DNA of 64,000 nt from an uncultured bacterium (GTDB lineage: Bacteria > Hydrogenedentota > Hydrogenedentia > Hydrogenedentales > CAILVY01): assembly GCA_937951485.1 (NCBI GenBank), contig CALEDJ010000029.1, positions 62,001 to 126,000 on the forward strand. The letters run 5' to 3'. Shown here piece after piece: positions 5,936 to 11,684 of the stretch. Both the position numbers and the translations under genes were made by a program. The notes beneath the pieces were generated by a model, which was not told the DNA's origin, made no database searches, and saw only the letters and a list, made by a program, of their open reading frames with translations. The first letter of the stretch is position 1. The number at the start of each line of letters is the position of its first letter.

Positions 5936-6844
5936 ATGGATACACGGCAAACAGTGACGTTGATTGCCATCATGGGGGTGTTTTTCGCCGGCCTGATTGC
6001 CGCCGCGTATTTCGGACAGCGCCAGGCCAGTGATCCCGCCGCCATCAGTACGACCAGGCGTTTTGCGGCCAAGCCGGGCACCATGCGGGAGAAGGCAATC
6101 GCGCTTACGACAAGCAAACGTTCCCTGGAATCCGAGCCCTCTTCCGGCGCGCCTGCGGATGGAGAGGCATTGCGACGGGAACAACCCATGCAGGCGTATT
6201 CCCTCAGCGGACCAAACGATGAACACCGCCCCGCCTCCACTCCAGAGACGCGAACCGCGCGCGCGGCACTGAACGCTGCAAATCCCGAAGAAGGCATGCG
6301 ACAGATCAGGGCGGCGTTGGATATGCCCCATGCCCCGGAGGAAGCCGCCCATCTGTATGCCGCTCTTGGGCAATTGTATTCCCAGTCCGACCCGCCGGAA
6401 CTCGCACAGGCGGTGGCGGCTTTCGATGAGGCCTACCGGCTGACCCAAGACCCCGCCATGCGCGCCGCAATCCTGGAACAACAGGCGTCTATTCTGGCGC
6501 AACAGGGTTCTCCGGCCAAGGCCCTGCAGAGGATAGAAGCACTGATGAAGGAGGCTGTCCCGGAGGACTTCGAAGGCATCCGTTTGCGCGCATTGGCAGC
6601 CCGCATTTACGAAAAGGTCGGCGCGATGGAGAAGGCCCTGGCCGCTTATCAGCAGGCCTTCGAAGATGCGCAACGACGCCAGGATGAAAACCCCGACGCC
6701 GCCGACACCCTGCGCATGACCGGCCTGCGTCTCACCCGCCTGCTTCGCGCCATGGGCCGTATTGAAGAAGCGGAGTCCGTGGCGACACGCGCCCGGAAGG
6801 CATTGGAAAACCATGCGATAAAATCCGCCGATGCCCCCCTTTGA
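5936..6844 (+). CDS. Membrane-anchored TPR-repeat protein
   Basis: A 302-residue protein with one N-terminal membrane segment (TLIAIMGVFFAGLIAAAYFG) and no lipobox, a disordered stretch to about residue 100, then helical repeats of tetratricopeptide type (AAHLYAALGQLYSQSD..LAQAVAAFDEAYRL; RIYEKVGAMEKALAAYQQAFEDA). TPR domains are protein-binding scaffolds, so a periplasmic assembly role is possible but not shown. It lies 15 bases after mdh and is probably co-transcribed. Its TGA stop directly abuts the stop of the convergent FG-GAP gene, with no spacer between them. Confidence 0.8.
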   Translation: MDTRQTVTLIAIMGVFFAGLIAAAYFGQRQASDPAAISTTRRFAAKPGTMREKAIALTTSKRSLESEPSSGAPADGEALRREQPMQAYSLSGPNDEHRPASTPETRTARAALNAANPEEGMRQIRAALDMPHAPEEAAHLYAALGQLYSQSDPPELAQAVAAFDEAYRLTQDPAMRAAILEQQASILAQQGSPAKALQRIEALMKEAVPEDFEGIRLRALAARIYEKVGAMEKALAAYQQAFEDAQRRQDENPDAADTLRMTGLRLTRLLRAMGRIEEAESVATRARKALENHAIKSADAPL

Positions 6845-8350
6845 TCAGCGGCTTTCCTCATGCAGTAATGCATCCAATGCCGCCAGGTCCCGCGAACCAC
6901 GGTCGTCACGCGGAGGAAAAGAAGAAATGTCCGGGGCCGCGGCCGCCAGAAGCATGTAGATGTGGTCTTCGCTTCGCAGGACGATACTCGTGCGGCCGCG
7001 TCCGTCCAGGTCCACCCGCGCTTCCACTTTGGTGATGGGGACTTGGAATTCGTGGTGGAAATCCGGCGCTTCGGAAAACCCTTGATCGGTATGCCGCCAG
7101 ACAGAAAAAGAATATGGCGTAATGCCGCATCCGAAGTCCGCACGCCCGTCCCCGTCCATGTCGCGCATCACCACATGCTGCACGGGCGCGTCGGGAACGC
7201 CCGGCGGAAACCATGAGAGCGGGGCCTCCAATGCGATGCTTCCGGAAGGATGCGGGGAGAAACGACCCTGGTCGGGCAGATAGAGATGGGTGGTGATCCA
7301 GACCGGCCATCTTCCGCCCATGAGTGCCCGCGTCAATACGTCCAGCGTGAGCGCCGGGCTGGGCGTTTTCCACAAGACCATGTCCACGTACCCGTCGCCG
7401 TTGAAATCCGGCAAGTCCTCTTCCTCGGTCAGGATGACTCCCCGATAACTGCGCGCCGGTCCCATGCGCAATTCGCGGTCGGGTCTGTCCGGTCCGCCTG
7501 GGGCGGGGCGCTGAACGCGGAGGACGGTGGTGCGATGGTCGCCCCCGCCGAGGGCGTAAAGGGCGCGTTCCCGGTGCGATCCATCCTTGCGCAATGGGAA
7601 CCATGGCCAAGCCTCAGCGCTGAGGGATATGGTTTCAGGCAACAGACGTTGCGCTACCCGGTGATACAGCGGGTCCATGATCTCCACCGGGATGGTATCT
7701 TCAGGAAAAGTGGGTTTGAAAGCCAATACCCGGCTGATATGCCACTCCAGGGCGTCTTCGGGACCGATCTGCGGGGGGCGCGCCGTCCAACTGCTGAAAG
7801 GCCGGCCATAGCCCACATGACGCGGGGCATCCGCCCCGATGGGAAAAGATTCCACCAGGTCGCCATCCGTGCTGCGCAATTCAAGCGTATCCTCGCGCGG
7901 CAGAGCGAGCAGGGTCGAGCCATCCCGGCGAATCACCAGGGTGGTGATAAAAGGTTGAACCCGCGCATCCACTGAAAACCCGGATACTCCGCCATACAGC
8001 GTGTCCAATCTGAACAATTCCTGTGAAACACCGGAGGCGCCGGGCGCGGTCTTGTACGCGACAATGCGATCGCCATGAATGGCAACGGCTTCACATATGC
8101 CGTCGCCGTCTATATCTGCGATATCCACCGCACTGGTGCCCGGTTGCAGCGCGATCCGCTGTTCCGCGTCGGACTGCGCATCCTCGAAAATGCGCAGCAA
8201 CAGTCCGTCAAGCACGACCAGGTCAGCCGTCTTGTCACCGCTTATGTCCGCAAAGAAACATACGGCGTTGCGGTTTTCCAGTGGAATCATGTGCACCTCG
8301 AAAATCGCCGTCGAAGCGATGCAGACACAGGCGATCGTCGCGCTGATCAT
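6845..8350 (-). CDS. FG-GAP/VCBS repeat protein 2 of the ABC operon
   Basis: A 501-residue protein with an N-terminal hydrophobic export signal (MISATIACVCIASTAIFE). At least four DxDxDG-type calcium loops typical of FG-GAP/VCBS beta-propellers are visible: ADISGDKTADLVVLDG, ADIDGDGICEAVAI, PDFNGDGYVDMVLW, RDMDGDGRADFGCG. Such propellers are usually secreted or surface-exposed binding modules. The ATG at 8350 overlaps the stop of the preceding FG-GAP gene by four bases and has GGAGGAAG upstream. It is the last gene of the four-gene operon with the ABC transporter. The ligand is unknown and I see no catalytic motif. Confidence 0.82.
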   Translation of the reverse strand: MISATIACVCIASTAIFEVHMIPLENRNAVCFFADISGDKTADLVVLDGLLLRIFEDAQSDAEQRIALQPGTSAVDIADIDGDGICEAVAIHGDRIVAYKTAPGASGVSQELFRLDTLYGGVSGFSVDARVQPFITTLVIRRDGSTLLALPREDTLELRSTDGDLVESFPIGADAPRHVGYGRPFSSWTARPPQIGPEDALEWHISRVLAFKPTFPEDTIPVEIMDPLYHRVAQRLLPETISLSAEAWPWFPLRKDGSHRERALYALGGGDHRTTVLRVQRPAPGGPDRPDRELRMGPARSYRGVILTEEEDLPDFNGDGYVDMVLWKTPSPALTLDVLTRALMGGRWPVWITTHLYLPDQGRFSPHPSGSIALEAPLSWFPPGVPDAPVQHVVMRDMDGDGRADFGCGITPYSFSVWRHTDQGFSEAPDFHHEFQVPITKVEARVDLDGRGRTSIVLRSEDHIYMLLAAAAPDISSFPPRDDRGSRDLAALDALLHEESR

Positions 8351-9891
8351 GGTGCTTCCTCCATGGCGAAACAGACGCGACATCCTTCAAAACGCTTGCC
8401 TTCCCGATATTGCACCGTCTGAAGAACCACATCGCTGAGGCCGTCGCCGTTCACATCGGCGATAATGAAATGTTCCTCATCCCTGACGGGGATCACGGCG
8501 CTGGGTTTGACGGAATAAGCGAATCCCGCCGCCAGATGCACGGCGATGCGGTCGGGCCGGTCACGCACCGCCAAATCGCGCCAACCGTTTGCATTGAAAT
8601 CACCGGTGATGCTGATCAATTCCCCCGCACGATAACGTTGATACATCAGATCGTTGAAGACCGGCGGGCGCGTCAGATGAATTCGCGTCCGAAATTGTAG
8701 TGTCGGCTCTTGGGCAAAGCCGCCTGCCGTCTGCCGATACACCGATAATCTGCTGTCCACCGATCGCCGACTGAGCACACGCACCGCCGTGTCCCACCAC
8801 CCGCCTTCCGTCAATAGAAGCGATTCAACGACCATGTCCAGCAGGCCGTCGCCGTCAAAATCCACGAAAGAGGTATGCGGGCGAAAACTTGGCATCGCAG
8901 GAGCGCGGCGCACATGGAAAGTTTTTCCGCCATCCAGAGTGGCCCAAGTCTCATAAATGGTCTTGGGATATGGACCGCCCCGGGAGATTTCCCATCGCCC
9001 GCCGGCAAAATCCACCATCTTATCTTCAGAGATATCGGGGTGAACAAGCGATGCCGTCGTGTTTTTCAAATAACACGGGCGCATGTGCCCGGGAATGTTC
9101 TCCGAAACCTGTTCTTGGGGGGCCGCCGTCGTGGGCGCGCAGTTTTCGTCAAGAAATACGCGGTACGTGAATTGACGGTGGCGAGCAGCGGTCATGTCCG
9201 GCGCATCATCACGCTGCAGAATGCTGATGCGCGGTCCATCCATGAACAGGCGGCAGGCCATATGACGCGCCGGCAGGGCAATCCGCCGGGCGGCCTGCGG
9301 CCACACGCGCTGCGGGGGCATCTGCGCCATACGCAATGGCGGCAGGATGCTCAGATACCCGCAAAACACATAGGCCTCATCATTATGCTTGTAAACATGC
9401 ACTCCTTCTTCATTCACCGCCACGATTTCCGGGAAACCGTCATCGTCAAAATCGTGCAGGAACCGCTGAAATACCCGCGTCGCCGGCAACTCCTCTTCCA
9501 GACGCGCAGTCCAGCCCAACGGGTGCTCCACGACGGGCCAGGGCATGTCCTGTTTCAGCATCATTCTCCAATCGTCATCCCGCCACTGGAAAACCACAAG
9601 CCCTGTTGCGAGGTGATAGAAAATCATGTCGCCCCAGACATCCAGCGCGTGCCTGTCCGGATATCGGGGCAAGGGATGCCGCGCCTCCTCGGGAAAGCCG
9701 CCGTCGCGCTGAAAAACGACCTCATTGGGAAAAATCAGGTCTAGAGCGCCGTCGCCATCCAGGTCGGCCTGGCGGCAGTTGAGGACCGCCCGACCGATAG
9801 CGTCTTTGACAAACGTCGCCCGCAGCCCCGGCAGGTCCTGACACCAGAATGTCACAGCGCCCAGGGCGATGTGCAGCCACACGCCGGTCAT
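8347..9891 (-). CDS. FG-GAP/VCBS repeat protein 1 of the ABC operon
   Basis: A 514-residue protein with a short hydrophobic N-terminus (VWLHIALGAVTFWC, a weak export signal). Five calcium-loop repeats are visible: ADLDGDGALDLIF (from residue 42), HDFDDDGFPEIVA, VDFDGDGLLDMVV, GDFNANGWRDLAV and ADVNGDGLSDVVL. The repeat spacing fits a beta-propeller like integrin alpha-chain N-termini. The longer reading frame to 10035 overlaps the permease gene, whereas the ATG at 9891 forms an ATGA overlap with the permease stop, so that start is chosen. It resembles FG-GAP protein 2 in design, though the two share little obvious sequence beyond the loops. Probably exported; function unknown. Confidence 0.82.
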   Translation of the reverse strand: MTGVWLHIALGAVTFWCQDLPGLRATFVKDAIGRAVLNCRQADLDGDGALDLIFPNEVVFQRDGGFPEEARHPLPRYPDRHALDVWGDMIFYHLATGLVVFQWRDDDWRMMLKQDMPWPVVEHPLGWTARLEEELPATRVFQRFLHDFDDDGFPEIVAVNEEGVHVYKHNDEAYVFCGYLSILPPLRMAQMPPQRVWPQAARRIALPARHMACRLFMDGPRISILQRDDAPDMTAARHRQFTYRVFLDENCAPTTAAPQEQVSENIPGHMRPCYLKNTTASLVHPDISEDKMVDFAGGRWEISRGGPYPKTIYETWATLDGGKTFHVRRAPAMPSFRPHTSFVDFDGDGLLDMVVESLLLTEGGWWDTAVRVLSRRSVDSRLSVYRQTAGGFAQEPTLQFRTRIHLTRPPVFNDLMYQRYRAGELISITGDFNANGWRDLAVRDRPDRIAVHLAAGFAYSVKPSAVIPVRDEEHFIIADVNGDGLSDVVLQTVQYREGKRFEGCRVCFAMEEAP

Positions 9892-10685
9892 GCGCTGAAA
9901 TTCCGACGGTGCAGGACAAGCATGGCGATGGCGGCGAACGCAACGCTGTAGACCGCCGATATGCCCAGGCACTGCCACGCCGCCGGGAACCAACCGACAT
10001 TCATCCCGTCGCACCGGTTGATGAATACCTGCCAAGGACTTTCCAGATAACTCGAAAACACAAAACGATCAATGCCCAACGGGTGCTTCACAATATCCAC
10101 CATCACCCATGCGCCCACCGCGAGGAACATCGCAACCACCGGTTTGCGGGTGAAAGTGGAAACCATCACGCCGTAGGACGCCGCCGCGAAGAGCGGCGCC
10201 AGCGCCAACAGGCTTCCCAAAAGATATGCGTTCAGCATCTGGTCGGATGAAAACAGGAGTTCCCCGCCGAAACTCACACCAATCAGATCCCCCATCGCAT
10301 AGGCCGCGCCCCAAGCGCCGGCAACCGTTATGACGACCAGCAGCAGGGCATAGGTGCAGCCCGCCATCAGTTTTGCGGCAAGGTACTCATGGCGGCGCAA
10401 TGGCCGCACCAGCACCGCACGAATGCTGCCGCCCCCCATTTCCTGTGAGACGAGTCCGGCGCAGTATATCAACAGCAGCATAACACCCAACAGCCCAAGC
10501 GCGAACGGAGTCACATAGGCGATATAGCCGTAGTCGCTGTTCCCGTCTCGTGTGATTCCCTGCACGAACGGAGCGACCACAAGCAGCGCCAACAGCAACG
10601 CCGGTCCCGTAAAGGTTTGCCGGCGTCGGATCGCTTTCCAGATTTCCACGGTATACGCCGTCCAGATGCGTCCCAGCATGTGCAT
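9888..10685 (-). CDS. ABC-2 type transporter permease
   Basis: A 265-residue integral membrane protein with about six helices. It has the ABC-2 permease hallmark after the second helix (AGLVSQEMGGGSIRAVLVRPLRRHEYLAAKL), where the E-x-x-x-G-S/T-x-R-x-x-L-x-x-P segment couples to the ATPase. Start ATG at 10685, with a second ATG six bases in. The matching ATPase lies 54 bases upstream, and the FG-GAP gene downstream overlaps by four bases. ABC-2 exporters move lipids, polysaccharides, drugs or, in Nos/gliding-type systems, support surface assembly. Substrate unknown. Confidence 0.88.
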   Translation of the reverse strand: MHMLGRIWTAYTVEIWKAIRRRQTFTGPALLLALLVVAPFVQGITRDGNSDYGYIAYVTPFALGLLGVMLLLIYCAGLVSQEMGGGSIRAVLVRPLRRHEYLAAKLMAGCTYALLLVVITVAGAWGAAYAMGDLIGVSFGGELLFSSDQMLNAYLLGSLLALAPLFAAASYGVMVSTFTRKPVVAMFLAVGAWVMVDIVKHPLGIDRFVFSSYLESPWQVFINRCDGMNVGWFPAAWQCLGISAVYSVAFAAIAMLVLHRRNFSA

Positions 10686-10739
10686 TATCTCACCCGTCCC
10701 TTGCGTATCGGCCCGGTACGCTTGACATCATTCATTGGG

Positions 10740-11684
10740 TTATCCGTCGCCCTCCGCCGCATCATCTTCCGTATCCGCTGGTGTGGGCTGGTTCAAAACC
10801 CGCATCAGATAGTCCTTGAGCGTGCGCCGACGCGGGACGATTCCCACGATTTGAAGCCCGGAACCCAGCAACAGCGCGGTCAACTGATGCGCCGCGCCGT
10901 CTTCCAGCCAGACATCCAGATGGCCGCTTTTCAACTCCGCGCGCCGAAGCCAGGTCTGGCCGCCCAACCGTTTCAACGCCCGTTCGGGGTGGTCCACAAT
11001 CACTTCAAGGCGGCTTGTGTCGTAAGACAACAGCGGTTTGGCAGGTTCCACTGCGGCCAGACGGCCTTCATTCATGATCGCCACGCGATCGCACACATCC
11101 TGCACTTCATGCAGCAGATGACTGGTAAACAGCACGGTGATTCCGGCTTCGTCCACCAGACGGCGCAACAATTGGTGTATTTCCTGGGTGGACTCGATGT
11201 TCAGGCCGGCGGTCGGTTCGTCCAGCAGCAATAATTCCGGTTCCGTGAGTATCGCCTGGGCGAGGGCAAGGCGCTGCCGCATTTCTTGCGAAAGATTCCG
11301 GGCCAGTTCCCCTGCAAACTCCAGAATACCCGCCATCCCCAGGATGCGGTCCACATTCACCGTTCGGTGCGCCAGCCGCGCCTGAAGTTTCAGATTCCGC
11401 CGCACCGAAAGATGTTCATAAAACACCGGCCGTTCCAGCATCACCCCTGTTTTCTGTGCGATCTCAATGAAATGCCTGCGCACATCCTTGCCAAAGAGGC
11501 ATATCTCGCCGCTTTGCGGACGCACCAGCCCGCATAGCATATTGAGGGTTGTGCTCTTCCCGGCGCCGTTCGGGCCAAGCAGACCGACAATTTCGCCCGT
11601 TTGAATTTCCAGATCAAGATCAGACACCGCCGTTTTTGAGCCAAAACGCCGCGTCACACCGGCCATATGAATGCACGTTGCCAT
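10740..11684 (-). CDS. ABC transporter ATP-binding protein
   Basis: A 314-residue ATPase of the CcmA/NatA type. It has Walker A GPNGAGKST (residues 37-45), a signature region LSQEMRQRLALAQAILTEP in which the usual LSGGQ is LSQEM, Walker B LLLLDEPTAGLN, the H-loop FTSHLLHEV, and about 90 extra C-terminal residues typical of ABC-2 partners. The frame is open to 11843, but the ATG at 11684 gives the normal N-terminus (MATCIHMAGVTRRFGSKTAV). It is first in the operon ATPase-permease-FG-GAP-FG-GAP and energises the permease at the inner membrane. Confidence 0.93.
   Translation of the reverse strand: MATCIHMAGVTRRFGSKTAVSDLDLEIQTGEIVGLLGPNGAGKSTTLNMLCGLVRPQSGEICLFGKDVRRHFIEIAQKTGVMLERPVFYEHLSVRRNLKLQARLAHRTVNVDRILGMAGILEFAGELARNLSQEMRQRLALAQAILTEPELLLLDEPTAGLNIESTQEIHQLLRRLVDEAGITVLFTSHLLHEVQDVCDRVAIMNEGRLAAVEPAKPLLSYDTSRLEVIVDHPERALKRLGGQTWLRRAELKSGHLDVWLEDGAAHQLTALLLGSGLQIVGIVPRRRTLKDYLMRVLNQPTPADTEDDAAEGDG

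Follow-up and report, generated by a model that had tools for sequence, protein, structure and literature searches.

A conserved operon of an ABC-2 transporter and two FG-GAP propeller proteins in Hydrogenedentota points to an undescribed cell-envelope machine

In Hydrogenedentota, the genes for an ABC transporter ATPase, an ABC-2 permease and two FG-GAP propeller proteins, here designated FG1 and FG2, form a conserved operon. The arrangement suggests a machine of the cell envelope that has not been described so far. This order of genes was identified in 46 of the 68 Hydrogenedentota genomes analysed. It is more than a chance arrangement, since it is conserved in these 46 genomes and since ATGA overlaps recur between the genes. 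A homologous cassette is also present in Planctomycetota, and in this comparison the cassette behaves as a unit in the two phyla: its genes have stayed together, and have been acquired or lost jointly. In the literature, no paper was found which joins Hydrogenedentes with FG-GAP proteins.

Organization and conservation of the operon

The window, a stretch of 64,000 nucleotides from an uncultured member of the Hydrogenedentota, contains the cassette on the minus strand. The ATPase (314 amino acids, 10740..11684; Pfam ABC_tran, 2.1e-31) is separated by a gap of 54 bases from the permease (265 amino acids, 9888..10685; ABC2_membrane_2, 1.5e-14), for which six transmembrane segments are predicted. 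These genes are followed by FG1 (514 amino acids, 8347..9891; FG-GAP_3, 1.8e-16), with a hydrophobic segment at its N-terminus and five calcium-type loops, and by its paralogue FG2 (501 amino acids, 6845..8350; FG-GAP_3, 3.1e-10), with three such loops. The Pfam matches of all four proteins exceed the cut-off. Two ATGA stop/start overlaps can be read directly from the minus strand, one between the permease and FG1 (9888..9891) and one between FG1 and FG2 (8347..8350). The four co-directional genes, the two overlaps and the gap had been described in an earlier note on this DNA, and all were borne out by the coordinates and the Pfam matches. A promoter scan found nothing, and terminator-like sites occurred at chance level.

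Among the 46 genomes with FG1, the permease gene immediately precedes it in 46, an ATPase orthologue in turn immediately precedes the permease in 45, and FG2 is adjacent in 44; the missing neighbours are explained by contig ends. The contig scan was carried out with a subset of 12 FG1 sequences, the alignment of 39 FG1 sequences being too diverse. Overlaps of the ATGA type were identified at the three junctions of the cassette in 36 of 45 genomes, 36 of 46 (permease-FG1) and 36 of 44 (FG1-FG2), and the linkage to the permease persists at protein identities of 24-47%. FG1 apart from the permease was not found among the 68 genomes, and in all 22 genomes devoid of FG1 the permease orthologue is also absent (at most 23 bits, compared to at least 195 bits). 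Whether FG-GAP orthologues stay beside the ATPase and the permease was the check proposed in the earlier note, and its core idea, a functional unit of an ABC-2 transporter and two FG-GAP propellers, has survived it.

Convergent to the cassette, a gene on the plus strand (5936..6844) codes for a TPR protein with an N-terminal transmembrane segment. A TPR homologue is found in the same convergent place at about 15 of the 46 loci, where malate dehydrogenase also recurs, and the gene was not recognised at the cassette loci of Planctomycetota. On these grounds, and because of its opposite strand, the suggestion that it is a companion of the cassette was not upheld; it is a frequent neighbour with conserved synteny and is not counted as a component.

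The ATPase and the permease

The presence of ABC_tran and ABC2_membrane_2 assigns the pair to the ABC-2 (type V) transporters. For the ATPase, the best two-subunit solved relative is NosF (2.7e-39), and for the permease profile the best solved match is NosY (9.8e-8). A search of the PDB with the single permease sequence found nothing. For the ATPase, the assignment also draws on the Walker A, Walker B and signature motifs in 45 orthologues. In the window copy, the signature reads LSQE in place of LSxG and the D-loop reads GLN, and two relatives carry worse changes, so that some lineages may hydrolyse ATP weakly. In the permease, the loops 128-151 and 199-236, which are predicted to be periplasmic, show a conservation at least as strong as that of the transmembrane segments, with G132, G136, G140, K200, Y213, W218 and F221 as conserved residues.

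The FG-GAP proteins

Both proteins were assigned to the FG-GAP/integrin-alpha type of propeller by their FG-GAP_3 matches, by the conserved calcium-type loops of the DxDxDG pattern (residues 43, 147, 344, 431 and 479 in FG1; 79, 315 and 397 in FG2) and, for FG1, by structural comparison. The model of FG1 (pLDDT 82.7) has an integrin-alpha propeller as its best structural match (Z 11.8, 4.6 A over 231 residues), which suggests an integrin-alpha-like propeller; this likeness is one of fold only and implies no integrin function. The model of FG2 is less confident (pLDDT 73.8). The Foldseek lists consisted mostly of unrelated WD-type propellers with low TM-scores, and nothing was found in the PDB with the single FG1 sequence.

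FG1 and FG2 had been described as sharing design but little sequence. A profile comparison refines this statement, since the two are homologous over 422 columns (probability 99.2, E 1.5e-19), which identifies them, as judged from their profiles, as diverged paralogues. In the tree, FG1 and FG2 each form one clade, and the pair is therefore old. The stems are long and the second planctomycete FG copy does not form one clade; the FG1/FG2 duplication and that in Planctomycetota are not resolved as the same event.

Outside Hydrogenedentota, FG homologues in ABC cassettes carry ordinary Sec signal peptides, for example MKKTLFSIAALLAPVFSLA, which suggests that the propellers are located outside the cytoplasm. 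In Hydrogenedentota, the N-terminal segments are without basic residues in 44 of 46 FG1 and 41 of 45 FG2 sequences, so that export and a periplasmic location are only presumed there. Among the three roles offered in the earlier note (exported substrate, surface receptor or periplasmic partner), an extracytoplasmic partner fits best, because of the signal peptides of the homologues in the other groups.

Relatives outside Hydrogenedentota

Of 43 Planctomycetota genomes searched with a permease profile built from Hydrogenedentota only, about 21 gave the FG-adjacent permease as their best match. Cassettes with one propeller (ATP-PERM-FG, PERM-FG or ATP-FG-PERM) were identified in at least four other families. 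FG homologues are also common at loci that have no ABC gene in the vicinity, and the propeller family is therefore not exclusive to transporters. Apart from the Planctomycetota locus L129, the named matches beyond Hydrogenedentota were generic FG-GAP proteins. T2SSK (PF03934) could not serve as a marker of presence or absence, since many unrelated proteins are matched by its helix-hairpin-helix part.

Possible functions and comparison to known systems

The four genes may encode one ABC-2 membrane machine of the NosFY-like type with a dedicated pair of extracytoplasmic propellers, a reading to which we give about an even chance. In such a machine, a dimer of the ATPase would drive a dimer of the permease in the inner membrane, and the two paralogous propellers would act with the permease outside the cytoplasm. 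They would most likely dock to the conserved loops on the periplasmic side of the permease, with the calcium loops keeping them rigid. The propellers would cap the transporter and would receive, select or pass on the transported material, or transmit movement to an envelope structure; any direction of transport is presumptive. In many Planctomycetota, the machine would probably serve a pseudopilus-type apparatus, because there the gene for a GspK-like minor pseudopilin accompanies those for the propellers.

The NosDFY system, which is involved in the copper-site maturation of nitrous oxide reductase and contains in NosD a beta-helix protein and not a propeller, is similar in that the transporter genes are accompanied by one for a dedicated partner outside the cytoplasm, and in that NosY and NosF are the top solved matches named above. 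It differs in that the cassette has two FG-GAP propellers in place of NosD. No Pfam match to a NosD-type domain was found in the operon proteins, and neither NosD in the operon nor an adjoining nos gene was identified. The earlier statement that the accessory proteins of known ABC-2 systems are all of other kinds was too strong, because NosDFY includes the periplasmic accessory protein NosD (PMC7558416) and PedA1A2BC a propeller of the YVTN type (PMC6839425).

An alternative would place the propellers at the tip of a pilus or pseudopilus, as PilY1-like calcium propellers on minor pseudopilins in a tip or priming complex, with the ABC-2 pair as a PilGHI-like assembly factor. In type IVa pili, the calcium-dependent propeller PilY1 is encoded with the minor pilins of the priming complex, of which PilX corresponds to GspK (PMC7541494), and in 21 Planctomycetota genomes a gene for a GspK-like protein (a type II secretion pseudopilin) is located directly 3' of the FG pair; at the loci L129 and L158, prepilin genes lie directly upstream. 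ABC transporter-like genes, pilGHI, are also tied to the pilus system of Myxococcus xanthus (PMC6060248, PMC5544727), where their deletion impairs motility and exopolysaccharide (PMC5544727); in this comparison, made by published description only, the difference is that no FG-GAP propellers are described there. This alternative is conceivable but doubtful, as the cassette of Hydrogenedentota has no pseudopilin gene next to it, and as GspK-like genes are present both in genomes that have the cassette and in genomes that lack it. The cassette GspK, in addition, is usually a single gene unaccompanied by a complete secretion operon, and it reaches 111 bits versus the GspK equivalog cut-off of 130. 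With Pfam matches considered up to E 1, neither FG1 nor FG2 gave a PilY1 domain, and the cassette differs from the PilY1 system by its paired FG-GAP proteins of about 500 amino acids, by its ABC-2 genes and by an operon without pilin in Hydrogenedentota.

A role in uptake is conceivable by comparison to the lanthanide system PedA1A2BC (Lut), a four-gene operon for an ABC-2-type ATPase, a permease, a periplasmic YVTN beta-propeller and a substrate-binding protein, which is required for growth when lanthanide is low (PMC6839425). By analogy, the propellers, with the five calcium-type loops of FG1, could bind a periplasmic ligand or metal ion, which the ABC-2 pair would import or whose presence it would signal. 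The ATPase matches the PedA1A2BC/PQQ-associated family TIGR03864 at 4e-47, but with 160 bits versus a cut-off of 302; no match to the YVTN propeller family TIGR03866 was obtained up to E 0.1, and a binding protein is missing from the cassette, which makes this analogy quite improbable. PQQ alcohol dehydrogenase (TIGR03075) exceeded the cut-off in only 5 of 100 genomes, the window's own not being among them, and a lanthanide or PQQ role is not supported by this test. The operon linkage and the unusual N-terminal segments in Hydrogenedentota would also agree with FG-GAP proteins as cargo, namely surface proteins exported by the ABC-2 pair rather than by Sec. This is very improbable in view of the ordinary Sec signal peptides of the homologues in Planctomycetota and other groups; moreover, the substrates of ABC-2 exporters are lipids, polysaccharides, drugs and small peptides, and large folded proteins are not known among them. 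That the ATPase and the permease, which resemble many exporters, form an ordinary drug or lipid exporter with two merely co-transcribed passenger genes is hardly credible given the linkage in 46 of 46 genomes at the low identities noted above, the joint loss in 22 genomes and the recurrence in another phylum.

Conclusions

On the level of sequence, the operon, its translational coupling, its conservation across phyla, its all-or-none inheritance and, in Planctomycetota, its linkage to a pseudopilin are established, as is, in the form of a model, the propeller fold of FG1. A broader proposal, which we consider unlikely, is an undescribed class of envelope machines, in which an ABC-2 transporter would power or load a complex of paired calcium propellers, and this complex would cap a pseudopilus-type filament or be passed on to it, with a Hydrogenedentota form without pseudopilin. 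The link to pseudopilins is testable. Few ABC-2 transporters have dedicated partners in the periplasm, and those which do, like NosDFY and PedA1A2BC, are instructive. The four-gene machine would extend this group by a widespread type that has two paralogous propellers with calcium loops, in phyla whose envelopes are little studied, and two hypothetical 'VCBS repeat' proteins would become parts of a defined four-gene unit.

Organization and conservation of the operon

In the window, all four genes of the cassette are located on the minus strand and code for an ABC ATPase (11684-10740; Pfam ABC_tran), an ABC-2 permease (10685-9888; ABC2_membrane_2) and the two FG-GAP propeller proteins FG1 (9891-8347) and FG2 (8350-6845; both FG-GAP_3), each Pfam match being above the cut-off. 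The permease-FG1 and FG1-FG2 junctions are ATGA overlaps, and 54 bases separate the ATPase and permease genes; re-reading the window showed that every coordinate of this operon in the earlier note was correct.

Of 68 genomes belonging to the Hydrogenedentota order, 46 carry FG1 and 45 carry FG2. When all 46 FG1 loci were read, the permease gene was directly upstream of FG1 in every case, the ATPase gene was upstream of the permease gene in 45 (the remaining locus being a contig end), and FG2 directly followed FG1 in 44 (the other two being contig ends). It had been asked whether the FG orthologues stay beside the transporter genes, and these counts show that they do. Four-base overlaps were found at 36/45 ATPase-permease, 36/46 permease-FG1 and 36/44 FG1-FG2 junctions, to which the 54-base gap of the window is an exception. 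Since the identity of FG1 orthologues falls to about 24%, the linkage is old. A permease orthologue was absent from all 22 genomes lacking FG1, at least nine of which are more than 90% complete (best score 23 bits, versus at least 195 in carriers). The permease is thus missing wherever FG1 is missing, and therefore the cassette is inherited or lost as a whole.

The cassette was also identified on a contig of 7663 bases labelled Nitrospiraceae OTbin.67 (L123, JAACEL010000232.1). By its length this contig corresponds to one of G054, a genome from the Hydrogenedentota order, and its public name is probably wrong.

The convergent TPR gene (5936-6844, plus strand) had been suggested as a companion. 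It adjoins the cassette in about 15 of the 46 loci, as malate dehydrogenase does in some; this adjacency represents shared synteny and gives no evidence for a common function.

The transporter

The nearest solved relatives of the ATPase/permease pair are NosF and NosY. The ATPase retains the Walker A and Walker B motifs and the H-loop. In the window copy, residues 130-142 and 151-162 contain the signature LSQE and the D-loop GLN; nearly all orthologues have LSxG and GLD. In genomes G004 and G012 the signatures are more degenerate than in the window, and the H-loop histidine is replaced by arginine. Judged from these motifs, ATP hydrolysis may be weakened in such lineages. The permease has six predicted transmembrane segments, and its predicted periplasmic loops are conserved at least as well as these, with G132, G136, G140, K200, Y213, W218 and F221 near-invariant, a pattern that hints at a periplasmic partner.

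The two propellers

FG1 and FG2 each form one clade in the tree. Profile comparison showed them to be homologous (probability 99.2%, E 1.5e-19, 422 columns), and they are therefore diverged paralogues. FG1 contains five DxDxDG loops and FG2 three, with aspartates that are invariant or nearly so among the orthologues. The FG1 structure model (pLDDT 82.7, pTM 0.81) aligned best with integrin-alpha propellers (Z 11.8, 4.6 A, 231 residues); the FG2 model is weaker (pLDDT 73.8).

Both proteins have a hydrophobic N-terminal segment, which is free of lysine and arginine in 44/46 FG1 and 41/45 FG2 sequences. Such Lys/Arg-poor N-termini across the 46 Hydrogenedentota loci (L069-L116) are unusual for Sec signals; lysine or arginine is present in the corresponding segments of neighbouring TPR proteins and of FG homologues from other groups. 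Because homologues in the ABC cassettes of other groups carry ordinary signal peptides, the propeller family is extracytoplasmic, and we infer this location for FG1 and FG2 in Hydrogenedentota themselves.

A second FG-GAP family of about 470 residues was identified at L227 (9763-11097, G000:C8), L235 and L236 and in many Hydrogenedentota genomes, including genomes without the cassette; no ABC genes were near it in the loci read.

The cassette outside Hydrogenedentota

FG homologues were found in 78 of 294 Planctomycetota genomes, and the cassette, whole or mostly, at 16 Planctomycetota loci read in detail. On one contig (L129), the ATPase, the permease and an overlapping FG pair are interrupted by one opposite-strand gene. 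A profile built from Hydrogenedentota permeases alone was run against 43 Planctomycetota genomes; in about 21 of them, its best match was a permease that shares contig and strand with an FG gene and lies no more than about 7 kb from it. In the other bacterial families sampled, one-propeller versions occur as ATPase-permease-FG (L212, L221), permease-FG (L209) or ATPase-FG-permease; in the last of these (L216 6301-9361, G417), the single propeller gene sits between the ATPase and permease genes. FG homologues that stand alone, with no ABC genes nearby, are also common.

A gene for a GspK-like minor pseudopilin, scoring under the cut-off of the GspK equivalog, is located directly downstream of the FG pair in 21 Planctomycetota genomes (19 read directly, two from coordinates), and prepilin-type genes lie directly upstream at L129 and L158. 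Linkage to a pseudopilin gene suggests that the Planctomycetota cassette serves a pseudopilus-type apparatus. The linkage is absent in Hydrogenedentota and so cannot explain everything. The Planctomycetota locus L194 (1402-12909, G271) comprises two ATPase genes, one a 624-residue frame also matching the permease profile, a permease gene and four consecutive FG-GAP genes, which are followed by a GspK-like gene.

Comparison with known systems and proposed mechanism

The earlier statement that known ABC-2 systems use partners of other kinds has to be softened, since PedA1A2BC includes a YVTN propeller (PMC6839425) and NosDFY includes NosD (PMC7558416). In its way of working, the cassette resembles an ABC-2 transporter that has a dedicated partner outside the cytoplasm; it lacks the defining features of both systems and belongs to neither. 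A Ped-like lanthanide role was not supported when tested. For Planctomycetota, the suggested role in a pseudopilus-type apparatus would follow a logic similar to that of PilY1 and its minor pilins (PMC7541494) and to that of PilGHI (PMC5544727).

We favour the reading that the cassette products probably form a single membrane machine. ATP hydrolysis by an ATPase dimer would drive a permease dimer. Placed outside the membrane, the two propellers would receive, select or transmit. In Planctomycetota, this machine would serve a pseudopilus-type apparatus.
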